A stretch of 64,000 nt of DNA from Bacteroidota bacterium (GTDB lineage: Bacteria > Bacteroidota > Bacteroidia > Chitinophagales > Saprospiraceae). Positions 38,777 to 63,948 of this stretch are shown piece by piece. A model generated the notes under the pieces. The model searched no databases. It was given only the letters and a program-made list of their open reading frames with translations, and was not told where the DNA came from. Where the stretch lies: the NCBI GenBank assembly GCA_963169325.1, contig CAUJEY010000307.1, positions 1-64,000 on the forward strand. The letters run 5' to 3'. A program made the position numbers and the translations under genes. How positions within the stretch are numbered: position 1 is the stretch's first letter; each line of letters begins with the position of its first letter.

Positions 38777-41533
38777 ATGAAACCTTCCATTTGTGCCCTG
38801 CTTTTCTTCGCCTTTTTGGCAACAAATTCGGCCCTGGCCCAGGGCTGGGAACGCCTTTACGCGCCGGGCAACGCGGCCGATTTTACCCAAACGCCCGACG
38901 GCGGTTTCCTGCTCGCAGGAGAATACGACCAATGGGATGTTGCCGACAAGGCATGGTTGCTAAAAACCGATGCCGATGGCAACGTGGAATGGACGCGCCG
39001 CTATGCCATTGGAGATACCCTGGAAGCCTACACGGCCGTGCAACTCCTGGGCAACCAAAATATCATCGCAGCCGGCGATTTTCTGGATTACTGGACGCCG
39101 ACCGAGCCGGAGCACATGGCCGCTTTTATCCACAAACTGGACGCGAACGGCAACCTGCTGACCGAAATTCAAATCAACCCCACCCCAAACCAAAACACCG
39201 GTTACCGCAGCACCGACCTCGCCATTACCCCGGCAGGCAATATTTTACATACGGTGGTTTCAGGCGGCCAGACGTCCCTGTACGCCTATAATGCCGATTT
39301 ACAACAACTCTGGCTGGTTTCTATCGCTGCGCTCATCCAGCAGATCGAGGTGTTGCCCGACGGCGCCCTGCTGCTTTGCGGCGCTAAAAACAACACGATG
39401 TATCTCTGCAAAACCGACGCTTCGGGCGCATTAATTTGGGAGAAAACGTATGAGCCCGGCGTGGCATACATGACCACGACGCAGGACGGCAATATCGTTT
39501 TGGCCAAACAGGGCCGTTTACTGAAAGTGGATGCCAACGGTAATTTGCTGTGGAGCAAAACCGGCATGAACGGGATCAGCGCATCCTGGGTGACGGAAGA
39601 TGGCGGGGGCAACCTGCTCGCGATCGGCTATTACAATGCCAATTTCACGTACGTTTTCACGTTGGGAAAATTCGATGCCGATGGAAACGAAATTTGGAAA
39701 AAAACGCCGCACCAGTCACTTTCCGGCGCCAACTCCACCGTCAAACCATTGGTCACCAGCGACGGCGGCTATGCCCTGGCCGGGCAACGCAACGGCAAAT
39801 CCATGCTCCTTCGCGCCGGCGCCGATTTCGACCTGTATCGCTCCTGGATTGCCGGGAGTATGTTCCACGATGTCGACGACGACTGCGAAAAAGACCCCGG
39901 CGAAAAGGCCTTGAAACGATTTTATGCCTCGGCCACGGATGCCAACGGCACGGTGTGGTCGGAAAGCCTGGAAAACGGAAAATTTGCCATGCAGGTCCCC
40001 GCCGGCACCTACGAAGTGAATATCAGCAAACGATCGTTTGATCCCGAAAACTGGCTACCCTGTATCGGCCAAACCGTGACGGTAACGGCAGCTACCGACA
40101 CCGCACACGTTCCGGCCATCGGGGTGCAATCGCTGGTCGATTGTCCGCGCCCTTATATCCAGGCGGCCATTCCAAAAGTGCGCAGCTGCCACGAGGGTAA
40201 GTACAGCCTGAGTTTTTTCAACCTCGGCACGCAATTGGCCACCGATGTGCAGATTGAAGTGGACTTGGCGGAAAACCTGACTTACACGGGCAGCAACCTG
40301 CCCTTACTGTCGCAAAACGGCCAGAAACTGCGCTTCCATGCAGGCGATCTCGACATCGACGAGGAAGGTACAGCCACCATCGACGTTTTCTGTTCCTGCG
40401 ATGCCGCTATCGGCGACCTCTCGTGTAGTAGTTTTCGAATTATGCCGGATTCCTGTTATCCCGTTTTACCGGATTGGGACCACTCTATTGTCAAAATAGA
40501 CGCCTCTTTCGACCCCGCTCAATTGAATTTCACCCTCGAAAACGTGGGCGCCGGAGATATGACGCAACCGCGCTGGTACCGCCTGCGCAACACCTGCCTT
40601 AACGTGGTCGGAGCAGGAACTTTTCAACTCGATGCCGGGGAATCGTTGAACCTGAACTACCCGAACCAGGCCGTGGTGTACTATTTCGAAGTCGAACCCG
40701 CGCCCAACCAGCCATATCTACCCGGCAACGCCTGGTTGCTTTCGCGGTGCCAGCCCGGACAACCGAAAGAGCAGTGGATGAACAACAACACGGGATCCCC
40801 TTTTTATGACCTGGATTGCACGGCCGTTTCCAATTCATTCGATCCCAACGACATCCGTGTGACGCCGCGCGGCGACGGCGACGAGGGCGCAATTCTCGCC
40901 ACAGAGTCCGAATTGCGCTACATGATCCGCTTCCAGAATACCGGCAACGACACGGCATTCACCGTCAGCATCCGCGACACGTTGCCTGCCGAACTGGATG
41001 TGTTGTCCGTGATTCCCGGGCCGTCGAGCCATCCATACACCTTTGATCTCCAAAACAATGTCATAAAGTTTCATTTTTCCGGCATCAACCTCCCCGACAG
41101 CACCGCCAACCTGGAAGGTTCGCAAGGGTTTGTCGTATTTACCGTCAGAATGTTTCCCAACCTGCCCGCCGGTACGCGCATTGAAAACCACGCGTCCATC
41201 TTTTTCGATTTTAATGCCCCGGTGATTACCAACACGGCATTCAACACCATCCGGAATCCCCTTTTGGTTTCGCTGGACGAACTGCCCGACAACAGCACGC
41301 CAACCGTGCGCGTCGCCCCCAACCCGGCGATAGATTTTGCCGTGTTTCATTTTGAAAAAATGTCGGAAGGAAACTTTCTGTTGTTCGATGCCGGTGGCCG
41401 GGCATTACGCCAGGAAGCCTTTTCTGGCGAAACGTTTGAATTGAATTGCCAAAATTTGCCCCCGGGTGTTTATTTCTTCCAAATTTTAATGGTGGGAGAA
41501 AAGCCGGCACAGGGGAAATTAGTAAAAAAGTAG
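38777..41533 (+). CDS. T9SS-secreted protein with propeller and DUF11-like C-terminal region (module copy 1)
   Basis: 918 residues with a signal peptide (1-21, ending LAQ). Residues ~22-350 are a propeller of WLLKTDADGNVEW-type blades. A SpaA-like linker with DVDDDCEKDPGEKAL begins near 360. Residues ~450-840 hold DUF11-like beta modules, including FQNTGNDTAFTVSIRDTLP and SIFFDFNAPVITN, the same domain as in the 1203-residue proteins. Residues ~845-918 are a T9SS type A domain (VAPNPAIDF, LPPGVYFFQ). It is divergent from helical protein 1 and 27 bp upstream of a shorter relative. A stalk-like surface protein is inferred. Confidence 0.85.
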   Translation: MKPSICALLFFAFLATNSALAQGWERLYAPGNAADFTQTPDGGFLLAGEYDQWDVADKAWLLKTDADGNVEWTRRYAIGDTLEAYTAVQLLGNQNIIAAGDFLDYWTPTEPEHMAAFIHKLDANGNLLTEIQINPTPNQNTGYRSTDLAITPAGNILHTVVSGGQTSLYAYNADLQQLWLVSIAALIQQIEVLPDGALLLCGAKNNTMYLCKTDASGALIWEKTYEPGVAYMTTTQDGNIVLAKQGRLLKVDANGNLLWSKTGMNGISASWVTEDGGGNLLAIGYYNANFTYVFTLGKFDADGNEIWKKTPHQSLSGANSTVKPLVTSDGGYALAGQRNGKSMLLRAGADFDLYRSWIAGSMFHDVDDDCEKDPGEKALKRFYASATDANGTVWSESLENGKFAMQVPAGTYEVNISKRSFDPENWLPCIGQTVTVTAATDTAHVPAIGVQSLVDCPRPYIQAAIPKVRSCHEGKYSLSFFNLGTQLATDVQIEVDLAENLTYTGSNLPLLSQNGQKLRFHAGDLDIDEEGTATIDVFCSCDAAIGDLSCSSFRIMPDSCYPVLPDWDHSIVKIDASFDPAQLNFTLENVGAGDMTQPRWYRLRNTCLNVVGAGTFQLDAGESLNLNYPNQAVVYYFEVEPAPNQPYLPGNAWLLSRCQPGQPKEQWMNNNTGSPFYDLDCTAVSNSFDPNDIRVTPRGDGDEGAILATESELRYMIRFQNTGNDTAFTVSIRDTLPAELDVLSVIPGPSSHPYTFDLQNNVIKFHFSGINLPDSTANLEGSQGFVVFTVRMFPNLPAGTRIENHASIFFDFNAPVITNTAFNTIRNPLLVSLDELPDNSTPTVRVAPNPAIDFAVFHFEKMSEGNFLLFDAGGRALRQEAFSGETFELNCQNLPPGVYFFQILMVGEKPAQGKLVKK

Positions 41534-41560: not shown

Positions 41561-43066
41561 ATGCTGTTCTTTCATTTTATCAGACGCTCCTTCTTTTCTA
41601 TCGCTTTCCTGTTCTTTTTGGGCTCCCTAACTGCCCAGCAGGACTGCCCCTTCATGCGGGTGAGCATTGCTACCGACGGATGGGTAGCCTGCGACAATGC
41701 GGTTTGTCACATCCGGCTCTGTAATGAAGGCAGCCAGACGGCAACCAATGCGCGGGTGGAAGTAGAGCTGCCACCCGCGCTTGGGTTCATTTCTTCCAGT
41801 ATTCCATCGTTCATCGTCAACAACCGGGTGGTTTTTAATCTGGGCACTTTTGCCGCGGGTAATTGCCTGGATTTTTCGCTGACGGTGGCGGTAGACTGCG
41901 ACCTGGTACCGGGAGAAGCCGTATGCCTGATCGCAAATGCGACGCCCCGGACATGTCCGGTATCAGCGCCGGGTTGGGACGGTTCCGATCTCCGGGTACG
42001 CGGCACTTGTTATGGCGCTGACAGCTTGTTGTTCACCGTTCGGAACCAGGGTGCCAGCGCCATGTCTGTGGCCACAAATTATATCATCACGGAAGACCAT
42101 TTGATGAGAGGCCAGGGCATCGTACCGGTCATTGACCCCGCCGTCGTGGATACCCTGGTTTTCCCGGTGTACGTCCCGGCAGGTAAAACGTACACTTTCC
42201 AGACCACACAAACACCCGGCCACCCGTTTCCGGAGCCCATTTCGGTTAGCGTGGAAGGCTGCGGCGGCAACCCCGGCAGTACGGGTTACCTCCTTCAATA
42301 TCCGCAGCACAACGGCGATGTACACAGTGATACCTATTGCGATGTGGTCAGTGCGGGCATTGCCGGCGCCGAAAAAACCGGGTTTCCATTGGGTTACGGC
42401 ACGGAACATTGGATAAACCGGGCCACCGAGATCAATTATCGCCTCCGTTTTCAAAACACCGGCGCCACCACGGTACAAACCGTGACGCTGGTGGATACGT
42501 TATCCGATTGGCTGGATTTGAGCACGTTCCGGGCGGGCGCGGCCTCACATTTGTACACCGTTTCGATTCAAAATCACGTCCTGACCGTAGTGTTTCCTTC
42601 GGCGCAGTTACCGCCGGCTTCCGTCAACGAACCGGCATCACGTGGATTTTTCAGCTTCCATATCGGCGTTTTGCCCGACGCACCAACCGGTACGGTTATC
42701 GAAAACACGGCACAGGTACAACTGGGCAATCAACCGAAGGTACAAACCAACGTTACGCTGCATCGCCTGGGGGAAAACTTCATTACCCTGCACGTTATCG
42801 ACGTTCCGAACAGCGACAACCTTGCCGTACAAATCAGGCCCAACCCGATGGGAGAATCGGCGCAATTCGTTTTTTCCGGAACGGATGCCAACGGGCCGGT
42901 GCTGCTGCAACTGTTTGACCCGGCCGGGAAACTGGTCCGGACCCTGGAAACACGGGAAGGTCAGTTGGTTTTGGAGCGGGATGATTTGGCAGCCGGTTTT
43001 TATTTTTTCCGGTGCCAAAGCCGAAGTGGGGGATGGGTTGGAGGGAAGTTGGTGGTAACGAGATAG
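41561..43066 (+). CDS. Shorter T9SS-secreted DUF11-like protein
   Basis: 501 residues with a signal peptide (1-25, ending TAQ). It lacks the propeller and starts directly with the DUF11-like region (CHIRLCNEGSQTATNARVEVELP, then SVEGCGGNPGSTGYLLQYPQ). This continues as FQNTGATTVQTVTLVDTLSDWLD, like the end of the neighbouring proteins. A T9SS type A domain closes it (IRPNPMGES, LFDPAGKL, AAGFYFFRC). It lies 27 bp after the 918-residue relative and is probably in the same operon. Confidence 0.85.
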   Translation: MLFFHFIRRSFFSIAFLFFLGSLTAQQDCPFMRVSIATDGWVACDNAVCHIRLCNEGSQTATNARVEVELPPALGFISSSIPSFIVNNRVVFNLGTFAAGNCLDFSLTVAVDCDLVPGEAVCLIANATPRTCPVSAPGWDGSDLRVRGTCYGADSLLFTVRNQGASAMSVATNYIITEDHLMRGQGIVPVIDPAVVDTLVFPVYVPAGKTYTFQTTQTPGHPFPEPISVSVEGCGGNPGSTGYLLQYPQHNGDVHSDTYCDVVSAGIAGAEKTGFPLGYGTEHWINRATEINYRLRFQNTGATTVQTVTLVDTLSDWLDLSTFRAGAASHLYTVSIQNHVLTVVFPSAQLPPASVNEPASRGFFSFHIGVLPDAPTGTVIENTAQVQLGNQPKVQTNVTLHRLGENFITLHVIDVPNSDNLAVQIRPNPMGESAQFVFSGTDANGPVLLQLFDPAGKLVRTLETREGQLVLERDDLAAGFYFFRCQSRSGGWVGGKLVVTR

Positions 43067-48715: not shown

Positions 48716-51700
48716 CTACCCTTTCACCACAAACTTCCCGCTCCCAACTCCCCGCCCGGCGGCATCTTCCACCCGGAAAAAATACACGCCACCGGGCAAT
48801 CCGTTTCGCTGAAACAAATACTGCGTTCCATTGGCGCGAACTTGCCGGACCAATTGCCCCCGTGCATCCGTAATGGTGATTAAATGTTGTTCAAACGCGC
48901 CGTTTACCAGGCGCAAAACGGCCTCTTCCTGCAGGGGATTAGGCGAAACCAGCACCAGCTCGTTGCCTCCGGGCAAAAATGGCACATTGGTATTGACGAG
49001 GTAATCATTCCCGATAGTATGAAGCGTGCTATTGGTAATCACCGGCTCATTAAAATCAAAATAGATTGCCGCTTCATTGTAAATCTCGGCGCTGAGGGGC
49101 ACATCCGGTTTTTGCGCGATGCGAAAACTGACAAAACCGTGCGAAGCCGCTTCGTTCACATTACTATCCGGCAAATGGATATTGTTGAACGTAAACGTGA
49201 GCGCTCCCTCCCCGCTGAATGTCCATTGATACGGATGCGAGGATGCGCCGGGCCGTACCGAGGCCGGATCAAGCCAGGGCGACAGGGTGTCGCGAAGGAC
49301 GACGGTAAAAGCCGTATCGGTACCCGTATTTTGAAAACGGATGAGGTATTCCAGTTCCTGCCCGGGGCGAATGCGGTGTTCGGCGCCGAAGCCGAGCGGG
49401 AAACCCTGTTTGTCGTTGGGATCGAAGGAGCCGGTGTTTTCCCGGCAGGCTATATCCCGCGAAGGCTGGTACCCGTTCACCGGAAACTGATTGATATAAC
49501 CCAAGCTGTTATAGCCGCCGCAGCCTTCGGCAAAGGCCAATGCCAGACTGGAAAAGGGGTGCCCCGGTTCCTGCTCCGACTCGATGCGCCAGGTATGACC
49601 GGTAGCCGGCTGGGTAATGGCGAGTGTTTCGCCCGGAGCGTATTGCCGGTTGCCGTTCATCAGTACCACATCGTCGATGATAATGATATAGTCGAGCATT
49701 TGGGAAGGCGCATCGCCCGCGTTTTGGAGTTCCAGCTGAACAACCGTGTCCTGGCAACTGATCGTTGCCTGTATTTCGGCGCCCGACCAGTTATTTACCG
49801 GCGTACAGAGCGTGTCGGGGTAGGCATGCGCGTTAAAACAATGGGTCTGACCCAGTACCGTGGAGTTGCATTCCACATTCACCAACAGGCTGAACCGCCC
49901 GCCTGCCCCGAAAGGCAAATCGCCAACGGGAAACCGGTAGGTGTCGTTGCCCAGGACTGTATACGGCAAGCTGGCACTGACCAGGTTCGTAAATGGATCG
50001 ATCTGTACATCCACCCAGGCGCTGTCGGCGGTTTCGGTACCTTCGTTGCGGTAATACACATAAATATTGTTGTCAAAACACCGCCGCAGCCCGGGCACGC
50101 TGATATCGACGGTCACCAGGGGGCAATCCGATAATGCCGCCGCCGAAAAATCGAGTGTATCGAGGCCGAACAGGCTATCTGCCAGGATGGTTTGCACGGC
50201 TTCGCAGCTCGTCCACCAAACGGCATTGGGCACCTGCAATTGTACTGCATAGGTTCCCGTATCTACAAACATCAGATAATGGCCGCTCGAATCGGAGGTA
50301 CCGTAAACCGTATTCAGGCCCTCCGCCTCTACCTTCCAGCCGGTCAACGGCAATTGCGCATCCGGCGTACTGCAATCGGCATCGGCATCTCGCCGGATAT
50401 ATCCGCCGATATAGGCGCCCTGGGTAGTCGGGGTCGGGGTACGGTATAATCTGCCAATTGAAATAAACAGATATTGATCGGGCGACACGGGATCCAAAAT
50501 ATTGGTTCCGTAAGAATACGGCAAGGCATTCCAGGTAACGCCCTGATCGACTGACCGTTGCACACTCGGCGCTTTCAGGAACAACAAGTGTCCGGCAGCA
50601 TTTCCGGCCATGGGGCCATAGGAAAAGGTACCATACGTATCCACCGGATGGCGCAGCCAACTTTGGCCGTTATCTGTCGACCGGTACATCGGATATCTAT
50701 CGGCCCCTTGTTTTCCAATAGCATAAATAACACCGGCCGGATCGATATGTATGTCTTTAAACAGGATATCGGCAGGTACCCCGGTTACCGGAATCCAATT
50801 TTCACCCAGATCGTCGGAATACCAGATGCCGGGCAGGGTGTCGTTCCCAACCACATTCATCGCGGCAAAGAGGCGCCCGGAAGGGTGTACTTCCATTTGA
50901 TTCATAATAAGCGACGGACCGGAAATTGCCTGCCAGCTCTGACCATGATCCCCGGAGCGCAACAATTGAAACTGGGAAAGTCCGTTGGCATTAACAAACA
51001 TGGCCGAACCGTCCGGCGTCATTTCGACACTACCGGGGTAATGATTAGGCGGGATAATTTGCGTGAAATGATCGCCGTAATCATCGGACCAGTACAAGCT
51101 GTCGCCGATATAGGTTACCAGCTGCCCGGCGTCTCCGGACACAAAATTCCGCAGATAGACCAGATTAAAGTCCTGACTGAATTTGAAGTCGGTTATTTTC
51201 GTCCACGCCTGGCCGTTGTTGAAGGTGCGCCACAAGCCGTTTGGCGTATGGGCATAAAACGTATCTGCCGACACAAAAGCCATTTGTTCCACGGGCGCCA
51301 TAGGTATTCCATAAGAAGCGAACTGCCAGGTTTGGCCATTGTCTGCGGAGCGGTAAATCGCCTGATTGCAGTGCCCGAACAAGGCGCCGTCCGGCATCCT
51401 GAAGGGCATAATAGACGGCCATATCTCGTGGTTCCCGGGTTGGGGCAACCAGGTTTGCCCATCGTCGTTCGAATAGGATAGACCTGGCCGTCGCCCGTCC
51501 TTATACGAGGTCACTGCCAGTAACATTCCGGAAGCCAGTTCAACAAGCGTGTGTAATCTAAAATCCGGCGTCGGGATCGTCTGCCAGTTCAATCCGTTGT
51601 CGGTCGACCGATAAAAATTAGCGGTACTGAGTATCAGCAGGGTACCGGATTGGGTGTTGTATAAAGACCAGGGCGTTTGCTGCGCGGTTTGCGCGATCAT

Positions 51701-52327
51701 TTGCCAGCTTTGCCCGTCATCCCGCGACAAGTATGTTTCTTTCGCTGCATTGGTATAGGCCAGGGCGCCGCTCTGGAGTACTTGCAACGGTGGCATAATC
51801 TCTTCATTGGCACTAAAAACCTGCGCCCAGGTAATCCCGCCGTCGCCGGATCGCCATATTTCCTCACCATTGGCCGACCGGGCCAGCAACGAACCGCCGG
51901 GCGTTTCAGAAACGTCGGCATAAGTCACACTATCCTTCACCAAGGTCCAGGTCAGGCCTTCATCAAAAGAGCGAAACAAGCCGGCATTGGAAAAACTGCT
52001 GTCTGTCATCAGCGCATTAAACGTCCCGCTGTATCCGATATCAACATTGCCAGCAAGATACCCATTGAACACAGGGGCTATTTTCGTCCATTGCTGGCCA
52101 TTATCGTGGGTGCGATACAGGTCGGTAACGAACGGCGATAGCTTTAAAAATCCATATAACTTTCCGCTGGAGGTGGGCGCCATGCGGTCAAAAGTTCCAC
52201 CGGAGGGCCCCGGAAACGGTTTCCAAAAAGTAGTGTCCTGCGCCGACAAACTAAGCGTCAGGCTCAACAAGGCCGGCAACAAACGGATTATTTTTTTCAT
52301 AGACAAACGAGTATTTCGTGATTTCAT
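48716..52327 (-). CDS. T9SS-secreted BNR-propeller and DUF11-like protein (module copy 2)
   Basis: 1203 residues. The signal peptide is KKIIRLLPALLSLTLSLSAQ, so the internal ATG at 52298-52300 may be the real start. Residues ~30-650 are BNR blades (RTHDNGQQWTK, RSFDEGLTWTL, RSADNGQTWQF and others). A linker with RRDADADCSTPDAQLPL (~665) leads to DUF11-like modules (~760-1120), including FQNTGTDTAFTVVLRDTLSP and AAIYFDFNEPVITN. A T9SS type A domain ends it (VSPNPLQEE, ITDARGQL, GGVYFFRV). The C-terminal ~200 residues are almost identical to the protein at 53875. It is divergent from helical protein 2. Confidence 0.9.
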   Translation of the reverse strand: MKSRNTRLSMKKIIRLLPALLSLTLSLSAQDTTFWKPFPGPSGGTFDRMAPTSSGKLYGFLKLSPFVTDLYRTHDNGQQWTKIAPVFNGYLAGNVDIGYSGTFNALMTDSSFSNAGLFRSFDEGLTWTLVKDSVTYADVSETPGGSLLARSANGEEIWRSGDGGITWAQVFSANEEIMPPLQVLQSGALAYTNAAKETYLSRDDGQSWQMIAQTAQQTPWSLYNTQSGTLLILSTANFYRSTDNGLNWQTIPTPDFRLHTLVELASGMLLAVTSYKDGRRPGLSYSNDDGQTWLPQPGNHEIWPSIMPFRMPDGALFGHCNQAIYRSADNGQTWQFASYGIPMAPVEQMAFVSADTFYAHTPNGLWRTFNNGQAWTKITDFKFSQDFNLVYLRNFVSGDAGQLVTYIGDSLYWSDDYGDHFTQIIPPNHYPGSVEMTPDGSAMFVNANGLSQFQLLRSGDHGQSWQAISGPSLIMNQMEVHPSGRLFAAMNVVGNDTLPGIWYSDDLGENWIPVTGVPADILFKDIHIDPAGVIYAIGKQGADRYPMYRSTDNGQSWLRHPVDTYGTFSYGPMAGNAAGHLLFLKAPSVQRSVDQGVTWNALPYSYGTNILDPVSPDQYLFISIGRLYRTPTPTTQGAYIGGYIRRDADADCSTPDAQLPLTGWKVEAEGLNTVYGTSDSSGHYLMFVDTGTYAVQLQVPNAVWWTSCEAVQTILADSLFGLDTLDFSAAALSDCPLVTVDISVPGLRRCFDNNIYVYYRNEGTETADSAWVDVQIDPFTNLVSASLPYTVLGNDTYRFPVGDLPFGAGGRFSLLVNVECNSTVLGQTHCFNAHAYPDTLCTPVNNWSGAEIQATISCQDTVVQLELQNAGDAPSQMLDYIIIIDDVVLMNGNRQYAPGETLAITQPATGHTWRIESEQEPGHPFSSLALAFAEGCGGYNSLGYINQFPVNGYQPSRDIACRENTGSFDPNDKQGFPLGFGAEHRIRPGQELEYLIRFQNTGTDTAFTVVLRDTLSPWLDPASVRPGASSHPYQWTFSGEGALTFTFNNIHLPDSNVNEAASHGFVSFRIAQKPDVPLSAEIYNEAAIYFDFNEPVITNSTLHTIGNDYLVNTNVPFLPGGNELVLVSPNPLQEEAVLRLVNGAFEQHLITITDARGQLVRQVRANGTQYLFQRNGLPGGVYFFRVEDAAGRGVGSGKFVVKG

Positions 52328-52406
52328 GGGTCAAAGATGATACCCGCTAATGGCTTTTAGAAATACAAAATATTCAATTTGCCAGAAAATAATTTTTATT
52401 AAGTAA

Positions 52407-52436
52407 TTGATAATCAGTTTTTAAAAAATAAATTTG
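52407..52436 (+). promoter_or_regulatory. Promoter-like element of helical gene 2
   Basis: TTGA (52407-52410), 18 nt, then TAAATTTG (52429-52436), an exact TAnnTTTG, precede the ATG by 27 bp. Spacer and geometry match those of the other two helical genes. Confidence 0.65.
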
Positions 52437-52463
52437 CCACAATAAACGGTCAATCACTTTTGT

Positions 52464-53861
52464 ATGGATGCACTCTTGCTCCGCGTTTTTCGACAACTCT
52501 CCGCACCGGAACGCCGCCAGGTGGGCGAACTGGCCCGATGCCCTTATTTTAACCGTCGGGAAGAGGTGGTCCGCTTGTGCGATTATTTGACGGAACACGC
52601 CGGCCGGTCTTCACGCGCGACCATGCAGCAGGAGCAGATTTTCGCGGCGGCCTGCCCTGGCGAACCGTACGATTACCGCCGCTTGCGTTATCTCCAATCC
52701 TACCTGCTGGATATCGTACGGCAGCACCTTATCCTGCAGGAAGGACGGCAGGAGCCGGCCGAACAAACACCCCTGCTCCTGCGCGCATTGCGGCGGCGGG
52801 GTATCGACGATTTATTTAAAAAAACCTGGGCCACGCAAATAACAGAAACCGGGCGCGCTACCCTGCGCGATGCCCGGTATCATTTTCAACGTTACCAATT
52901 GCACCAGGAACAACTGGAGCAAACCTCCCAACGCGAACGTTCGGCAGGCCTGAACCTTCAGCCCCTGCCCGACGAACTCACCGTATATTATGTATCGGAA
53001 ATGTTGCGCCACGCCTGCCTGGCGTCCATGCACGAGGCAGTGGCCGGACAAGCCTACCGGCTCGGATTGCTGGAAGCTATTCTGGAAGCCGTGGAACGGG
53101 AGAAGATGTTGCGTATACCGGCCATAGCGGTGTACTACTATGCCTATCAGATGTTGCACCATCCGGGAGAAAACGAGCCGATGGAGCATTTGCGGGCCAG
53201 CCTGGCCGAACATAGCCACCGGTTTGCCATCGACGAGCAACGCGGCCTTTTTCTGTTGGCCATCAACGGCTGCATCCGGCGGATGAATGCGGGGCAACGC
53301 CATTACATTCAGGAAGCGCTTGATCTGTATCGCACCGCCCTGGAGCGGAATCTGTTGTTGGAAAACGGCATTTTTTCGGGATTTAATTACAAAAACATTA
53401 TCCGGCTGGCAGCGGCCCTGAACGAACATGAGTGGGCAGAACAGTTTCTGGAACAATATCGCCCAACGCTGCATCCCCGCGAACGCGACACCCTTCACCG
53501 ATACAACCTCGCCTACCTATATTTCCAGCGGCAGGATTACGCCCGCGCCATGCCCTTGCTTCAACAAGTTGAACTCGAAGACCCGCTCAATAACCTCGAC
53601 GCCCGGCGTATGCTCTTGCGCAGCTATTTTGAACTGGGCGAATGGCAGGCACTTGAATCGCTGTTACAGAGTTTTTCCGCTTATTTGCGCCGCCAGAAAA
53701 ACCTGGGATATCACCGGCAAAGCAATGAAAAACTCCTGTTCTTTGTCAAAAAACTGATCGCCACCGGAAAAAGAGACCTGAAAACCCGGGCAGCTATCCG
53801 GGCCGAACTGGAGTCGACACCGGAAGTAGCAGAACGGGCGTGGCTGTTACAGCAATTATAG
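52464..53861 (+). CDS. Helical protein of unknown function, family member 2
   Basis: 465 residues, helical throughout, with no signal peptide or membrane segment. The N-terminus LLRVFRQLSAPERRQVGEL leads to CPYFNRREEVVRLCDYLTEH, the conserved opening of the family. A central TPR-like part follows (YYAYQMLHHPGENEPMEHL, then GLFLLAINGCIRRMNAGQR). The C-terminal ~110 residues (QDYARAMPLLQQVELEDPLN to the end) are nearly identical to family member 3 at 57678, while the first 350 are only about half identical. It is divergent from the 1203-residue T9SS protein at 48716 and ends 14 bp before the stop of the next T9SS protein. Confidence 0.8.
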   Translation: MDALLLRVFRQLSAPERRQVGELARCPYFNRREEVVRLCDYLTEHAGRSSRATMQQEQIFAAACPGEPYDYRRLRYLQSYLLDIVRQHLILQEGRQEPAEQTPLLLRALRRRGIDDLFKKTWATQITETGRATLRDARYHFQRYQLHQEQLEQTSQRERSAGLNLQPLPDELTVYYVSEMLRHACLASMHEAVAGQAYRLGLLEAILEAVEREKMLRIPAIAVYYYAYQMLHHPGENEPMEHLRASLAEHSHRFAIDEQRGLFLLAINGCIRRMNAGQRHYIQEALDLYRTALERNLLLENGIFSGFNYKNIIRLAAALNEHEWAEQFLEQYRPTLHPRERDTLHRYNLAYLYFQRQDYARAMPLLQQVELEDPLNNLDARRMLLRSYFELGEWQALESLLQSFSAYLRRQKNLGYHRQSNEKLLFFVKKLIATGKRDLKTRAAIRAELESTPEVAERAWLLQQL

Positions 53862-53874
53862 CCTGCCGGCTATC

Positions 53875-56800
53875 TCACGGTTGCAACACCAACCGCCCGG
53901 TGCCGGTCAATTGTCCATTTGCTGTTTCCAGTCGGAAAAAATACAAGCCCGCCGGCAGTTGCAGCCGCTCGAACCGGTACGTCCCTTCATTCAGCACCGC
54001 CTGCCGTACGACGTGCCCCAGCGCATCGGTCAGGAAGAAACGTTCATTGCGGAAAGGCCGACCATTGGCATGCCGGATAAGGGTAAAATCGTGAACGGGT
54101 TGGGGTGAAACGTGTATTTCTGAGCGTGCTAAAGACGTCGGCGCCGGTTTCAGGCCCACCATTATCCGGCCGACGGTATGCAAGGTCCGGTTGGTAATCA
54201 CCGGCTCGTTAAAATCAAAATAAATCGCCGCTTCGTTGTAAATCTCCGCACCCAGCGGCACATCCGGTTTTTGCGCGATGCGGAAACTGACAAAACCCTG
54301 CGAAGCCGCTTCGTTCACATTACTGTCCGGCAAGTGGATATTGTTGAACGTAAACGTGAGCGCTCCCTCCCCACTCAAGGCCCATTCGTACGGGTGCGAG
54401 GATGCACCGGGCCGTACAGAGGCCGGATCGAGCCAGGGCGATAAGGTGTCGCGAAGGACGACGGTAAAAGCTGTATCGGTGCCCGTATTTTGAAAACGGA
54501 TGAGGTATTCCAGTTCCTGCCCGGGGCGTATGTGGTGTTCGGCGCCGAAGCCGAGCGGGAAGCCCTGTTTGTCGTTGGGATCGAAGGAACCGGTGTTTTC
54601 CACGCAGTTTTGATCCCAGGAAGGCATGAAAGGATCAACCGGAAACTGATTGATATAGCCGAGGCTGTTGTAGCCGCCGCAACCTTCTTTAAACGCCAAT
54701 GCCAGTGTTGAAAAAGGATGCCCCGGCTCTTGTTCCGATTCGATACGCCAGGTTAGGCCGTTGGCAGGAAAATCGAATTTCAGGGTATCATTGGGCGGAT
54801 AGGTGTGATTTCCCTGAAACAGCACGACATCGTCCTCAATGACAATAAAATCGAGCGCCTGAGAGGACGCCAGACCGGTGTTGTATAGTGCGAAATGCAC
54901 AGATGTATCCTGGCAGATCACCGAAGCTTGCACTTCGGCGCCCGACCATGCCGGCACCGGCACACAAAGCGAATCCGGCTGAATATGCGCGATAATGCAA
55001 TGTGTTTGGCCGAGCACGGTCGAATCGCAGTCCACCAGAACCTGGAGCATAAACTGCCCGCAACCGCCGGGGGCCACGGCGCCGGTATTAAACCGGTAAA
55101 GGTGGTTGCCCAAACTGTCATAAGGCCAATCGGACGAAGTGATACTCAGGTATGGGTCCAGACTCAGGTCCAGCCAGGTACTGTCGGCGGTTTCCGTCCC
55201 CTGGTTACAAAATTGAACATACACGGGATTTTCAAAACAACGGCGCAGCTTTGGAATGGCTACCTGTACACTCATCAGGGCACAATCACCGATCGCCTGT
55301 ACATTCAGGTCCTGCACGGTTGTATCCTGAATAACAGGTAGTTGCACTTGCAGGGCGGAGTCGCATACCGACCAAAGCAAAGCAAAAGGCGGGGAGGTAT
55401 GGAGTGTATAGGAACCGGTATCCAGAAAAAACAGGTACCGGCCTGCCGAATCCGTGCTGGTCAGCCAGGTATCGCCGTTGCCGGCTTCTACCGTCCAGTT
55501 GGGCAAAAACGTTTCGGGGTCCTGTGTACTGCAATCGCCATCGGCGTCTTTTTCTACCACTCCGGTGATCCAGGCGCCGGCGGAGGTGGCCTGGGCCGAA
55601 CGCAAGAGCAAACCCGTACTACCGAACCCGCCGTATTTCCAGGCCGTCAGGTACAAATGTTGCGTTGGGTCGAAAGCCAGTGTTCGAACATTACCGGTGC
55701 CATTTAACCCTTGAAGTGTATCCGGCACCGGAAGTGATTGCCAGTGCCTGCCGCCATCTGCCGACAGATACACCGGCGTGTTCGAATTGCTAAATACAAA
55801 CAATTGATCTGCGTTGTTCGACAGGATAAAATCACCGTCAATACCCGGAACCGGAATCCAATGCGATCCGGTATCCGGAGAAAATTGAAGCGATGTGTTG
55901 CCTAAGGCATAAATCCCGCCGTTGCCGGTAATGGTAAAATCCCGCACTTCCTCATCGGTTGTTTTCAGCCACGAATTGCCGTTGTCTTCCGAACGAAACA
56001 ACTTGGGAGACACCCGGTATGTATTCGGCAACCAGTAAATGCTGTCCATCATGGCGAATAATGACCCGGAAGGGTGTCGCACCACCTTCCGGATAAAAAA
56101 ACTATCGGAGATCATTTGCCAATTATTCCCGTTATCGTCGGAACGGGCTGCCCCCAACATGGTATTGGAAAAAACCGTGTGCGAAATGCTATCTACACAA
56201 ACCCTTTGCATCCAAAAGGTGGGTAGCCCTCCGCTTGGGGTGACATTCACCGGATTTGGTGAGCCGGAGTCGAAACGAAAAACCGAATCCTGCCACAGTA
56301 AATAATGCCTGTCGCCGGCATCAAAAGCGACTTGTGTGTTACTTTTTCGCGAATTGGCTTTTGTTAAACTCCAGTTTTGCCCGGCATCGGCGCTTTGCCA
56401 TAGCCCGCTCTCCGAAACGGCCCAACAGTCGTGCAGGTTTCGCGGATAGAGGTATTCTACTATGGCGCGATTCATTCCAAATGCAGAAAAAGACCAGGTA
56501 TGTCCCTCGTCTGCCGAACGGTAGATGCCACCCAGACCATTGGCCAGTAGGGCGCCATCCTGTAATGGGCTGCGCAAGGGGAAATAATTTACTTTGAACG
56601 GCGTGGTAATCCGCTCCCAATGCAGCCCGTCGTCGGTTGACTTGTATATACCCACTGAATTGGTCAGGTAAAGCGTACTATCGGGTGACAAAATGATACT
56701 GGTTGCAGACTTATATTCAATCGGATATAAGCTGTCAATATCAATATATGCTGCCGGGCCGGTATCATCTGTTCTCCGGGCCAGACCATTAAAGTCATCC

Positions 56801-57486
56801 CAATTCAAAGTAGCGCCCGAAGCGGTAATGGTTAACCCGAAATACAGGTCGTCGAAATAGCGCTTGTGCCAATTGGCCCCTTTATCCAGGGAAAAGTACA
56901 CGTACCCCTGATATTCGGGTTGCAGGATGACCCGACCGTATGCATCCGTTCCTACGGTTTTGAAATAGTCCACACACTCCGGAAAAACGCTCCAGGTGAT
57001 GCCGTTGTCGTCGGAACGTATCACACGCTGACAATACCCTCCAAACTGATATCCGGAATCCCGAAGTGCATACAACGTCCCGTCCGGCGCTTCGGCGATA
57101 CCATGAATATTCAACGAATCGGTGAAAATCTGCCAGCTTTGGCCATGATCAATGGAACGATACGTATCGAAGTAATGGGGCGGGGACTGATTCACTGTTA
57201 AGCTCCGTTCCGCAAACAACGTCCCGGCCCTTCCGACAGAAATTTTTTCAACCGGGAGATTTGGATCGGTAAACGGCTGAAAAACCAACTGCCAGTGCAC
57301 ACCATTGTCGGTCGAAGTATATACCACATGGTCATAAAATTCCGCATAAACGCGCCCTTCGGCCGTCTGCACGATATGAACCGGTTCGCCGCCCGGTGGC
57401 GCATTCAATTGCTCCCAATACGACTGTGCATAAATAAAAGGCGTGCCCAGGCAGGTGACGAGTATCAAGTAGACGTATTTCAGCAT
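53875..57486 (-). CDS. T9SS-secreted BNR-propeller and DUF11-like protein (module copy 3)
   Basis: 1203 residues with a signal peptide (1-20, ending YAQ). BNR blades fill ~30-650 (TSTDNGVHWQL, RSIDHGQSWQI, RSDDNGITWSV, RSADEGHTWSF and others). A linker with EKDADGDCSTQDPE leads to DUF11-like modules and GFGAEHHIRPGQELEYL, FQNTGTDTAFTVVLRDTLSP, AAIYFDFNEPVITN. A T9SS type A domain ends it (VSPQPVHDF, LTDALGHV, AGLYFFRL). The propeller half has diverged from that of the copy at 48716 while the C-terminal half is nearly identical. It is divergent from helical protein 3. Confidence 0.9.
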   Translation of the reverse strand: MLKYVYLILVTCLGTPFIYAQSYWEQLNAPPGGEPVHIVQTAEGRVYAEFYDHVVYTSTDNGVHWQLVFQPFTDPNLPVEKISVGRAGTLFAERSLTVNQSPPHYFDTYRSIDHGQSWQIFTDSLNIHGIAEAPDGTLYALRDSGYQFGGYCQRVIRSDDNGITWSVFPECVDYFKTVGTDAYGRVILQPEYQGYVYFSLDKGANWHKRYFDDLYFGLTITASGATLNWDDFNGLARRTDDTGPAAYIDIDSLYPIEYKSATSIILSPDSTLYLTNSVGIYKSTDDGLHWERITTPFKVNYFPLRSPLQDGALLANGLGGIYRSADEGHTWSFSAFGMNRAIVEYLYPRNLHDCWAVSESGLWQSADAGQNWSLTKANSRKSNTQVAFDAGDRHYLLWQDSVFRFDSGSPNPVNVTPSGGLPTFWMQRVCVDSISHTVFSNTMLGAARSDDNGNNWQMISDSFFIRKVVRHPSGSLFAMMDSIYWLPNTYRVSPKLFRSEDNGNSWLKTTDEEVRDFTITGNGGIYALGNTSLQFSPDTGSHWIPVPGIDGDFILSNNADQLFVFSNSNTPVYLSADGGRHWQSLPVPDTLQGLNGTGNVRTLAFDPTQHLYLTAWKYGGFGSTGLLLRSAQATSAGAWITGVVEKDADGDCSTQDPETFLPNWTVEAGNGDTWLTSTDSAGRYLFFLDTGSYTLHTSPPFALLWSVCDSALQVQLPVIQDTTVQDLNVQAIGDCALMSVQVAIPKLRRCFENPVYVQFCNQGTETADSTWLDLSLDPYLSITSSDWPYDSLGNHLYRFNTGAVAPGGCGQFMLQVLVDCDSTVLGQTHCIIAHIQPDSLCVPVPAWSGAEVQASVICQDTSVHFALYNTGLASSQALDFIVIEDDVVLFQGNHTYPPNDTLKFDFPANGLTWRIESEQEPGHPFSTLALAFKEGCGGYNSLGYINQFPVDPFMPSWDQNCVENTGSFDPNDKQGFPLGFGAEHHIRPGQELEYLIRFQNTGTDTAFTVVLRDTLSPWLDPASVRPGASSHPYEWALSGEGALTFTFNNIHLPDSNVNEAASQGFVSFRIAQKPDVPLGAEIYNEAAIYFDFNEPVITNRTLHTVGRIMVGLKPAPTSLARSEIHVSPQPVHDFTLIRHANGRPFRNERFFLTDALGHVVRQAVLNEGTYRFERLQLPAGLYFFRLETANGQLTGTGRLVLQP

Positions 57487-57600
57487 AAGTTAAATTTTCC
57501 GGTTCATAAAAATCCTTTATCCGGCTCAAAAGTCACTGCTTCTTGCTTTACTCTAAAATACAAAAAAGCGAATTTGTCGGATTCATTTTAATTTATTATA

Positions 57601-57630
57601 TTGACAATCAATTTAATAAATTTATTTTTG
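57601..57630 (+). promoter_or_regulatory. Promoter-like element of helical gene 3
   Basis: TTGA (57601-57604), 18 nt, then TATTTTTG (57623-57630), an exact TAnnTTTG, precede the ATG by 47 bp. The 18-nt spacing is the same as in the 52464 copy. Confidence 0.65.
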
Positions 57631-57677
57631 TCGAAAATTGTGATAATAAATTTCTGTTCGAATCCCATTGTTGAATA

Positions 57678-59078
57678 ATGGCCGACAGTTTATTGATCCA
57701 AACGCTCAAACAACTCCCCTCCAAAGACCTGCGCCTGCTGCGCGACTTCGCACAAAGCCCTTGTTTCAACCGGCGCCCCGAAGTCATGCGGCTTTGCGAT
57801 TATTTAGTGGAACACGTTGGTAAAGCCGATCGAAAGGCATTTGAATCGGAGCGGATGTTTGCCGCGGCTTTACCCAACCAGCCTTACGACAATCGTGTCT
57901 TGCGCCATATCATGTCTTACCTGCTCGATCTGGTGCGGCAATATTTGGCATGGGCCGAATGGCAGTCCGAGGAAGGGGAGCAACAGCGTTATTTAGTTCG
58001 CGCCCTGCACCGCCGGAACTTGGATCATCTGTTTGAAAAGGAGTGGCAACGCGCCAATGCAGCAGCGGAAGCGGCAGAAACCCGCGATGCGCGCCACCAT
58101 TTCCGGCAGTATCAGTTGCACCAGGAGTATCTGGAACGGACTGCCCGACACGAGCGCTCGGCCCGGATCAACCTGCAACCTTTGCCCGACGAACTCACGG
58201 TGTTTTATGTCGCCGAAATGCTGCGGCACGCCTGTTCGGCCTTGTCGCATCAGGCCATCGCCGGACAGGAGTATCGTTTCAGTTTATTGGAAAACATACT
58301 CGAGGCTGCGGAACGGGAGCAATTGTTAAACATACCGGCTATTGCGGTTTATTATCATGCGTACAAAATGTTGCAATCCAACGGGGCGCCGGAACATTTC
58401 GAGCGGTTGAAAGCACTGTTGGCAGAACAGGAAAATGCCTTTTCCAGCGAGGAAATGCGTGGTTTGTACCTGCTGGCCATCAACGGTTGTATCCGGCGTA
58501 TGAATACCGGCCAGCGTGAATATATCCGCGAAGCTTTTGAACTATACCGCGCGGCGCTGGAACGCGATTTTTTGAAAGAAAACGGCGTTATGTCGGGGTT
58601 TACCTATAAAAATATAATTCGTATCGGGGCAGCGCTCGGCGAGCATACCTGGGCGGAGGAGTTTCTGGAACAATACAAAACACAGCTTCACCCCCGCGAA
58701 CGTGACAACCTCTACCGGTACAATCTCGCCTACCTGTACTTTCAGCAGCAGGATTACGCCCGCGCCATGCCCTTGCTTCAACAAGTTGAACTCGAAGACC
58801 CGCTCAATAACCTCGACGCCCGGCGTATGCTCTTACGCAGCTATTTCGAACTGGACGAATGGCAGGCCCTGGAATCGCTGTTACAGAGTTTTTCGGCTTA
58901 TTTGCGCCGCCAGAAAAACCTGGGCTATCACCGGCAAAGCAATGAAAAACTCCTGTTTTTTGTCAAAAAACTGATCGCCACCGGAAAAAGAGACCTAAAA
59001 AAACGGGCAACTATCCGCGCCGAACTGGAGTCGACACCGGAAGTGGCAGAACGGGCGTGGCTGTTGCAGCAGTTTTGA
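57678..59078 (+). CDS. Helical protein of unknown function, family member 3
   Basis: 466 residues, helical and soluble. The family opening is LLIQTLKQLPSKDLRLLRDF followed by CFNRRPEVMRLCDYLVEH. The central region (YYHAYKMLQSNGAPEHFERL, GLYLLAINGCIRRMNTGQR) aligns with family member 2, and the last ~110 residues are nearly the same in both. It is divergent from the T9SS protein at 53875. With that gene it forms the second unit of a ~5.2-kb tandem duplication. Confidence 0.8.
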   Translation: MADSLLIQTLKQLPSKDLRLLRDFAQSPCFNRRPEVMRLCDYLVEHVGKADRKAFESERMFAAALPNQPYDNRVLRHIMSYLLDLVRQYLAWAEWQSEEGEQQRYLVRALHRRNLDHLFEKEWQRANAAAEAAETRDARHHFRQYQLHQEYLERTARHERSARINLQPLPDELTVFYVAEMLRHACSALSHQAIAGQEYRFSLLENILEAAEREQLLNIPAIAVYYHAYKMLQSNGAPEHFERLKALLAEQENAFSSEEMRGLYLLAINGCIRRMNTGQREYIREAFELYRAALERDFLKENGVMSGFTYKNIIRIGAALGEHTWAEEFLEQYKTQLHPRERDNLYRYNLAYLYFQQQDYARAMPLLQQVELEDPLNNLDARRMLLRSYFELDEWQALESLLQSFSAYLRRQKNLGYHRQSNEKLLFFVKKLIATGKRDLKKRATIRAELESTPEVAERAWLLQQF

Positions 59079-62706: not shown

Positions 62707-63948
62707 TCAGTGGCCGGTGTTGGTGGCCTGTCCACCATGGTTTATTTTGGTCGATAGGGACCATCGGTGGGATGGCGGCACGGGTTTGCCGGTTTCCGGC
62801 CGGCCAATATCTGCGCGGTGGTTAGCGTTCGGCGGGCTTTCCCCTTTCAAACCGATGGGCGTATTCCAATGGTAAATGCAGGCATCCTCTGCGCCGAAAC
62901 CACCCAAGCCGACCCAGCCGTGCCGCTCCGACACAAAATCGACGGCAAAACCGCCATAATTAAGGGCAGGTTCCTCGCCTTTCAGGCTCCAGGTGTCGCC
63001 GGAATCTTTGGTTAGCCAGGTTTGTGCGATATTCAGGTTAAAATCGGAGCACTGTACTACATACCAGCCCGGCTTGCCGGGTATTGCTTCAACAGCTTCC
63101 ACGGTGGCTACTTCACCGGCTACGGGCGGTGGCGGGGTGATTTGTGTCCAGGTAAGTCCGCCGTCAGCCGTGGTGAAAAACCGGGGTGCATAAAAATAGT
63201 AAGGGCTTGCCGCCATCCCGTTTTGCCCGTCGGTGAAGCTGATCATGGAAATGATGTCGTCATTGCCCAAAAACGGCAGGTCAATCAGTTCCCAGGTATG
63301 GCCCTTGTCTGTACTTCGGGCCAGTTTTTGATAAACGGTGGTGGCCCAAATCGTGTCGCCCAATGCGTCATAGGAGCCCGCAAGGGGTAGATAAAGTGTG
63401 GAATCGGAAAGGGCAAAAGAACCTTCTCCCGACCAGCTTGTACCGCCGTCGGTAGTGTAACGGTAATAATTCCGGTTGACGGCCACGCCGTTCAGCGGAT
63501 CGAAAAAATGTACGATGCTTCCGGCGCTCCGGTCTTCGAGTTGCAGTTGCCAACTTTGGCCGCCGTCGTTTGTACGGTACAGCCGATGTCGGTTTGGGTC
63601 GTCGAACCAAATCAACGACGCCCAGCAGGTATTTGCATCCAATGCGGCAATGGAGCCGGTCAGGTAACCCGCCGTGTTGGGTATCGTGTCGTATTGCCAA
63701 TTGGCGCCGCCGTCGGTGGTTCGGATGATCCAGGGGCGCAAGGTGGGCACCGTGGAATAGAAAGACGTGCTTGCGCCGGCCCATACCGTATTAGAGTCGG
63801 TGGCCTGCAAGGTTTGTACGGCAAAATAAGGGCCGAAGATACTGTCGGCTTGCGGAGCCCATTGGGCTCGAACGCCGGTGGAAAAGCCGCAACAGAGCAG
63901 GCAAAACAAGAGCAGGGCGCCGGGGCGCCGGGTGGGTGAGGGAAGCAT
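62707..63948 (-). CDS. BNR-propeller protein lacking a T9SS sorting domain
   Basis: 413 residues with a signal peptide (1-28, ending RAQ). BNR blades match those of the downstream paralogue (RTTDGGANWQY, RTNDGGQSWQL, YTTDGGTSWSG, RSTDKGHTWEL, TTADGGLTWTQ, TKDSGDTWSL). After IYHWNTPIG, where the paralogue enters its sorting domain, the sequence becomes ~45 low-complexity polar residues ending in TNTGH. I find no sorting domain in any frame before the next gene. It is either a truncated T9SS cargo or a periplasmic form. It lies 30 bp upstream of its paralogue on the same strand. Confidence 0.8.
   Translation of the reverse strand: MLPSPTRRPGALLLFCLLCCGFSTGVRAQWAPQADSIFGPYFAVQTLQATDSNTVWAGASTSFYSTVPTLRPWIIRTTDGGANWQYDTIPNTAGYLTGSIAALDANTCWASLIWFDDPNRHRLYRTNDGGQSWQLQLEDRSAGSIVHFFDPLNGVAVNRNYYRYTTDGGTSWSGEGSFALSDSTLYLPLAGSYDALGDTIWATTVYQKLARSTDKGHTWELIDLPFLGNDDIISMISFTDGQNGMAASPYYFYAPRFFTTADGGLTWTQITPPPPVAGEVATVEAVEAIPGKPGWYVVQCSDFNLNIAQTWLTKDSGDTWSLKGEEPALNYGGFAVDFVSERHGWVGLGGFGAEDACIYHWNTPIGLKGESPPNANHRADIGRPETGKPVPPSHRWSLSTKINHGGQATNTGH

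Follow-up and report, generated by a model that had tools for sequence, protein, structure and literature searches.

Within a 64,000-nucleotide stretch of DNA from a Saprospiraceae bacterium (GenBank assembly GCA_963169325.1, contig CAUJEY010000307.1, positions 1 to 64,000; hereafter the window), one arrangement of two genes occurs three times: a gene for a predicted helical protein of about 466 residues is transcribed away from a gene for a large protein with a sorting tail of the type IX secretion system (T9SS). This locus raises the question of whether the two genes belong together, and what the helical protein does for its partner. The initial annotation had described two such units in tandem and a third pair, and open reading frames (ORFs) lie exactly at those places (Table 1), all three pairs being divergent, with gaps of 136, 191 and 179 bp in modules 1, 2 and 3. 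The helical gene is linked to T9SS cargo genes; its function we infer. Each pair would be a dedicated two-gene module, made of a large surface protein bearing a T9SS sorting domain and a cytosolic, all-helical protein resembling tetratricopeptide repeat (TPR) proteins, and we tentatively favour the view that the latter acts locally, in the cytosol, to regulate the cargo gene or operon transcribed away from it.

Divergent pairing of helical genes with T9SS cargo genes

Among 98 helical genes with a complete upstream gene, 94 are divergent from that gene and 82 are divergent from a neighbour with a T9SS tail. The pattern holds in the same genome (34 helical genes, 33 divergent, 28 with a T9SS tail), in the first relatives (21, 19 and 16) and in loci from named genomes (43, 42 and 38). 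Other genes of at least 100 residues in the same loci are divergent in 154 of 515 cases and have a divergent T9SS-tail neighbour in 10 of 515, so chance pairing is ruled out (82/98 versus 10/515, Fisher p 1.9e-73). Helical genes whose upstream gene is cut or missing were excluded from the 98, as was L008 (fetched loci are numbered with L), and four loci in which no helical gene was called (L056, L111, L129 and L130) were dropped; several of the cut partners start like secreted proteins, as read by eye. To detect T9SS tails we used a profile of our own, seeded with six proteins of the window.

The link extends beyond close relatives. In a set from other genera and families, a divergent T9SS-tail neighbour is found for 11 of 16 helical genes and for 0 of 60 other genes. 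Because the codon model trained on window genes misses genes in low-GC loci, a length-based caller was used for those, the distant genomes included; in the low-GC part of this set the figures are 5/9 and 1/87. In 25 loci of two distant genomes, divergence holds for 38 of 41 helical genes; two helical genes paired on one strand were scored by the neighbour they have in common. There, a T9SS-tail gene is first in the divergent run, within its first two genes or within its first three in 15, 26 and 28 of the 41 cases, versus 2, 3 and 4 of 171 other genes. Homologues thus lie mostly beside T9SS cargo, less strictly so in the two distant genomes, where the first divergent gene often encodes a small protein; by eye, these small proteins are of fibronectin type and lack a signal-like start, resemble lipoproteins, or are short and ribbon-helix-helix-like. 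The proposal of the initial annotation that the helical protein serves the secreted partner therefore stands as far as the link is concerned, in the sets of loci tested, and neither of the two findings that it named as refuting has come up; the role of regulator, chaperone or assembly factor stays a proposal.

Exceptions to the rule include same-strand neighbours (L049, L059, L060, L081), long gaps in which no gene was called (L060, L123), a neighbour with a sigma-70 region 4 domain (L073) and a lipoprotein-like gene inserted between helical gene and cargo (L098). Several arrangements recur in the distant genomes. A fibronectin-like protein of 89-111 residues without a signal-like start repeatedly adjoins helical genes, as read by eye (sites in Table 1); in L151, L163 and L166 its gene is followed by one with a T9SS tail. 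In L162 the helical gene adjoins short ribbon-helix-helix-like proteins, also read by eye. There are also sites where two helical genes lie on one strand, either overlapping or side by side (Table 1).

The constant pairing and orientation, first noticed in three pairs, belong to a far larger family. With the 466-residue helical protein as query, the genome of origin (8,072,576 bases, 349 contigs, 96.7% complete) yields 38 matches at E <= 0.001, and a profile search of the fetched loci gives the same number (41 entries less 3 double fetches), one of them a 94-residue fragment at a contig end. The family was found in 19 of 20 genomes searched, including this one, and in one there was none: 12 genomes of the same genus have 5 to 29 matches, one of another family has 37 and five others have 1 to 4. 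In a draw of 395 genomes from the phylum, at least 13, the genome of origin included, match at E <= 1e-10, a lower bound since at most four candidates per genome were scored. The two distant genomes, from a low-GC family whose sorting tails may resemble those of Ignavibacteria, have 51 and 39 matches, a few of them fragments; the genome with 51 is 3.7 Mb in size. From named genomes we obtained 57 loci by scanning, most of them in metagenome-assembled genomes labelled Saprospiraceae or other Bacteroidota, with two labelled Thermoanaerobaculia. Records of two strains with DSM numbers, Flavilitoribacter nigricans DSM 23189 and Lewinella cohaerens DSM 23179, carry the module as well, so that the control of very large surface-protein repertoires becomes testable. 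On a plasmid of Pontibacter sp. G13 (NZ_CP134698.1; L204), a distant member of the helical family is annotated 'hypothetical protein'; its divergent partner of 1291 residues is annotated as an RHS repeat protein (RHS_repeat 20.7 bits, below the cut-off of 22).

A predicted TPR-like protein and its variable partners

The description of the helical protein as soluble, helical and of no known family is supported. None of the three window proteins matches a Pfam or NCBIfam family at cut-off; all Pfam TPR models stay below theirs, and the best match overall is ANAPC3 (25.6 bits versus 27.2). We aligned a set of 52 members, consisting of the three window paralogues and 49 members from named genomes, and against Pfam these give scattered weak matches, mostly to TPR. 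A hydrophobic, signal-peptide-like start occurs in 0 of 82 helical proteins and in 58 of their 82 partners, with start codons from a simple caller. The structure model of the module 2 helical protein, made with these 52 sequences, has 24 helices, with a high mean predicted local distance difference test score (pLDDT 93.2) and a predicted template modelling score of 0.85, so that the protein is predicted with confidence to be all-helical and appears TPR-like. A Foldseek search of the PDB places IFIT5 first (E 2.3e-4) and also returns NprR, RapF, LGN, KLC1 and APC/C; among the 50 matches listed, the template modelling score (TM-score) by query length is at most 0.37, and for IFIT5 it is about 0.27. 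The predicted structure thus identifies no enzyme, and neither a known enzyme nor a known family was found with Pfam, NCBIfam or the PDB fold search. A defence system was likewise considered and set aside: four PADLOC families match one member each of the 52, weakly. For the members tried, this is a large protein family without a Pfam or NCBIfam name.

Twelve residues are invariant in the alignment: N269, N276, Y290, Y310, N312, A351, L367, L398, R411, Y417, H418 and E458. By analogy, the asparagines might form a ladder that holds a peptide. The median isoelectric point (pI) of the 52 members is 8.6; it rises to 9.5 in the conserved, basic stretch of residues 341-425. Ligands are probably bound by the conserved TPR-like C-terminal half, with the N-terminal domain probably acting as effector; the first 102 residues, modelled alone, reach a pLDDT of 88.6.

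The secreted partners are less uniform. At E <= 0.01, the 28 partners in the genome of origin match Por_Secre_tail (25), DUF7619 (20) and DUF11 (15), and beyond these the domain content differs from partner to partner (BNR/Sortilin, PQQ, SprB, PKD, fibronectin, Kazal, dockerin, AhpC-TSA and others). Across the loci, most partners have about 350-1800 residues, a few 160-200. In the window, the cargo of module 1 reaches 27.8 bits with TIGR04183 (cut-off 23) and 23.4 with Pfam Por_Secre_tail (below 27), that of module 2 reaches 20.2 and 12.0, both below cut-off, and that of module 3 reaches 26.8 and 22.4 (the latter below cut-off), with 155.5 bits for PF24595. DUF7619 is listed among intramolecular isopeptide domains, which occur in elongated surface proteins (PMC12617251). 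A simple pattern found its core in 31 of 82 partners, and 28 of these 31 retain the Lys and Asn. Because this isopeptide-type domain keeps its Lys and Asn while other domains vary, many partners have the look of stapled stalks whose heads can be exchanged. The idea that DUF7619 is the constant partner was rejected: 20 of 28 partners carry it, and about 22 of its 43 places in the genome lie away from helical genes (by hand comparison).

The main rival to a regulator is an export chaperone or targeting factor, cytosolic and dedicated to one cargo, which would keep the precursor unfolded for Sec or hand it on. TPR-like folds commonly bind peptides, and the partner is a large multidomain cargo. 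Moreover, distances between helical proteins track those between the C-terminal halves of their cargo (r 0.46-0.79 for 28 pairs of the genome of origin, 0.32-0.66 for the 22 long ones) and hardly those between N-terminal parts (r -0.15 to -0.04 and 0.20 to 0.29). This would suit a chaperone and is also expected from the duplication of linked genes; since linkage and co-duplication alone can yield such correlations, we rejected co-evolution as proof of contact. However, the helical gene is hardly ever on the cargo strand, many first partners in the distant genomes are small or do not look secreted, and over 100 other T9SS-tail proteins of the genome of origin (at least 150 T9SS-tail places versus 38 helical genes) manage without a helical gene, so we consider a chaperone rather unlikely.

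The size, secretion and multidomain make-up of the partner, together with the RHS-repeat annotation on the Pontibacter plasmid, could also bring to mind a polymorphic toxin with the helical protein as its immunity factor. Immunity genes sit next to a C-terminal toxin domain, usually following on the same strand. At the C-terminus of the partners here stands a sorting domain instead of a toxin domain (25 of the 28 above), and their genes are divergent, which leaves this explanation hardly credible.

The shared intergenic region and the role of the helical protein

In 85 divergent gaps of 60-700 bp we found two motifs, which lie exactly 25 bp apart in 22 of the 38 gaps holding both. Combined into a 71-bp composite with fixed spacing, they occur at a score of at least 16 in 53 of 117 helical gaps, most of which overlap the training set and a few of which are the same DNA fetched twice, in 0 of 89 other divergent gaps and in 3 of 440 other gaps; one of these three is the cargo promoter of L098, behind the inserted gene. 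Held-out loci contain the element in 15 of 35 cases, the fair figure being 13 of 33 without two L175 copies of training locus L086. Where the gap is long (L025, L178, L098), the element stays by the cargo, and for this reason we read it as a putative cargo promoter. Read towards the cargo, its consensus is TTTG, 19 bp and nACtTTTGTAYCGT, with a TACAAA-type site upstream. Sigma-A promoters of Bacteroidota have an upstream -33 TTTG about 19 bp from the -7 box. This box is given as TAnnTTTG (PMC9723704). The element, read as a promoter from its sequence, corresponds to TTTG-N19-nACtTTTG and lacks the T of the -7 box. A simple Bacteroidota promoter pattern in the gaps was set aside, being in only slight excess (10 and 7 gaps versus 6.3 and 5.2 in shuffles).

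A sequence-only model of the element (E < 1e-3) finds 20 places in the genome of origin, 14 of them at helical modules, as compared by hand. By the same kind of comparison, in genus mates at least 9 of 13 (G005), 8 of 13 (G008), 3 of 7 (G009) and 8 of 15 (G012) sites are at helical modules. The idea of an operator private to the helical protein was not upheld for the element, which also precedes other transcription units. Two of the genes carrying it encode Crp/Fnr-type regulators (L193 5981-6718 and L196 5825-6658, both on the minus strand), the latter divergent from a 1101-residue protein with a T9SS tail; the Crp/Fnr-type protein is a candidate common regulator of the element.

The element also directly precedes a small-RNA-like gene of about 125 nucleotides with the conserved core ACTTTTCATGAGATTATATACGGGAAACCG, which has three exact copies, over 16 bases, in the genome of origin. 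Five of nine pairs in its terminator hairpin are changed on both sides. L190, L194 and L195 hold two or three copies, each with its own element, and these matched nothing in Rfam 15 at gathering thresholds. This gene leads to another possibility, that the basic TPR-like half binds cargo leader RNA or a small RNA of the same promoter class. IFIT5, the top Foldseek match, binds RNA; residues 341-425 are conserved and basic, and the small-RNA-like gene uses the same element. Yet TM-scores of about 0.27 are generic, and the small-RNA-like genes are mostly in loci without a helical gene (exceptions are L146, a bare core match, and L027, a divergent variant), so regulation at the RNA level appears improbable.

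We return to the helical protein as a local regulator of transcription units beside it. Its site of action would be the intergenic region that the two genes share, where it could work by itself or by way of RNA polymerase or another factor, and it would in this way set the expression of the divergent cargo gene or operon. In its favour count the divergence in 94 of 98 cases, the lack of a signal-like start in all 82 helical proteins scanned and the occurrence of the 71-bp element in many helical gaps. In the distant genomes divergence (38/41) is kept more strictly than the kind of partner, even with a small first partner that does not look secreted, which leans towards a regulator. The cargo there being second or third behind a small first gene, control of an operon suits better than binding of a single cargo. 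The TPR regulators NprR and RapF are also, weakly, among the fold matches.

Several findings weigh on the other side. Pfam and NCBIfam recognise no DNA-binding domain in the window helical proteins, and none is a repeated Pfam match among the 52 members. The N-terminal 102-residue model has no PDB match (best E 2.7), and the best matches of the whole protein, such as IFIT5 and APC/C, are generic helical-repeat proteins with low TM-scores. The element is weak at window modules 1, 2 and 3 (scores 12.1, 5.2 and 1.5), is not found at score 16 in the distant genomes (0/31), is without a helical gene at 6 of its 20 places in the genome of origin, and is common to paralogous modules and sited on the cargo side. 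For these reasons the element is no evidence for binding by the helical protein. As no DNA- or RNA-binding part is recognised, we hold a regulator to be possible, at somewhat less than an even chance. Unlikely, in our view, is the more specific version in which the helical protein reads the state of its own partner in the cytosol, for example by binding the unexported precursor or tail within its TPR-like groove, and adjusts the divergent promoter accordingly. If this were true, dozens of surface fibres would be run as separately controlled, copyable units with one regulator per cargo, and N-terminal business ends would be exchanged while stalk, sorting tail and controller stay.

Known systems offer partial parallels. 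RRNPP regulators are cytosolic, carry an N-terminal helix-turn-helix or Rap-type helical domain, and have genes that adjoin that of a secreted product. The TPR regulators of this group (NprR, Rap) are like the helical family, as predicted, in their all-helical, TPR-like, cytosolic nature and in lying beside the gene of a secreted product, but the family has no helix-turn-helix recognised by Pfam or NCBIfam, its N-terminal domain has no PDB match, and the partner is usually a giant surface protein, not a short pre-peptide (among ORFs of at least 60 residues). Lacking a recognised effector domain and having a giant partner, the family fails as a member of RRNPP. The mode of action of the module may have some likeness to that of divergent local regulators or of RRNPP pairs of receptor and secreted peptide. 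Polysaccharide loci of Bacteroidota likewise have one divergent local regulator gene per surface-protein locus. Those regulators are hybrid two-component system (HTCS), SusR or sigma/anti-sigma proteins, domains of which the window helical proteins match none in Pfam and NCBIfam. Dedicated chaperones like those of type III secretion are small acidic proteins encoded in the cargo operon, whereas the helical protein has about 466 residues, a basic median pI and the opposite strand in 94 of 98 cases.

The partners themselves belong with T9SS cargo that has a type A sorting domain and a DUF7619 stalk. Our searches of the open-licence literature showed no dedicated cytosolic partner of T9SS cargo and no such gene pairs. 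PorXY-SigP control of T9SS with PorA links a C-terminal-domain (CTD) protein to gene control (PMC7712824). Its parts are a two-component system, an extracytoplasmic function (ECF) sigma factor and a CTD protein that serves as the signal, and the available part of that source mentions no TPR-like partner for each cargo (PMC7712824). The helical family is tied to a secretion system characteristic of Bacteroidota, and suggests that each secreted protein is controlled or handled in a dedicated way that has yet to be named.

Duplicated modules and neighbouring genes

The helical protein of module 2 is 69% identical to that of module 1 and 32% identical to that of module 3. Over helical codons 1-359 of modules 1 and 2, third positions agree in only 0.37-0.58 of same-residue codons, so the tandem duplication is old. 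From about codon 360 to the end (the last 105 codons or so), nucleotide identity is 0.90-0.97 and third-position agreement 0.83-0.90, and over cargo codons 909-1108 or so, in the DUF7619 region, nucleotide identity between the two cargo genes is 0.80-0.94. These look like two separate tracts recently homogenised between otherwise old tandem duplicates.

Duplication in blocks accounts for paralogous modules within a genome and, together with the two recent tracts, would fit a passive pair that merely shares a bidirectional promoter region and has no functional interaction. The arrangement is kept across genera, families and the distant clade while the N-terminal domains of the cargo vary freely, and we regard a passive pair as very improbable.

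Table 1. Positions of modules, neighbouring genes and related features (window positions unless a locus is named)
Feature	Position	Strand	Basis or remark
Helical protein, 465 residues, module 1	52464..53861	+	ORF list, family profile
T9SS cargo, 1203 residues, module 1 (Sortilin/BNR-type propeller, DUF7619, sorting domain)	48716..52327	-	Pfam, NCBIfam
Divergent intergenic region, module 1	52328..52463		Shared promoter element match weak, score 12.1
Helical protein, 466 residues, module 2	57678..59078	+	ORF list, family profile, structure model (structure predicted)
T9SS cargo, 1203 residues, module 2 (Sortilin/BNR-type propeller, DUF7619, sorting domain)	53875..57486	-	Pfam, NCBIfam
Divergent intergenic region, module 2	57487..57677		Promoter element model weak at 57527-57593, E 0.03, motif score 5.2
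Helical protein, 468 residues, module 3	37191..38597	-	ORF list, family profile
T9SS cargo, 918 residues, module 3 (PQQ/BamB-like propeller, DUF7619, C-terminal sorting domain)	38777..41533	+	Pfam, NCBIfam
Second, shorter DUF7619 gene, 3' of module 3 cargo, same strand	41561..43066	+	TIGR04183 20.7 bits, below cut-off 23
Protein of 413 residues, signal-like start, no sorting domain detected	62707..63948	-	Divergent from fourth helical gene
3' tract of module 1 helical gene, near-identical to 58758-59075	53541..53858	+	Codon comparison
DUF7619 tract in the module 1 cargo, with high similarity to 54163-54762 in the module 2 cargo	49004..49603	-	Codon comparison
Small-RNA-like gene, two copies	L190 6445-6583 and 7516-7654	-	Same genome, contig C100
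Small-RNA-like gene	L191 6802-6940		Same genome, contig C135
Further small-RNA-like loci	L194, L195, L197, L201, L203		
Helical-gene sites with fibronectin-like neighbour	L132 7334-8773, L134 7057-8496, L151 5966-7426, L163 5564-7012, L166 3432-4865		
Same-strand helical pairs	L131 9165-10601, L133 7053-8489, L154 6762-8189 and 12065-13498, L163 9330-10814		

A fourth member of the helical family starts at contig position 64451, just past the right edge of the window. The gene for the 413-residue protein divergent from it adjoins a further gene (61276-62676) whose 466-residue product has a signal-like start and a sorting domain.

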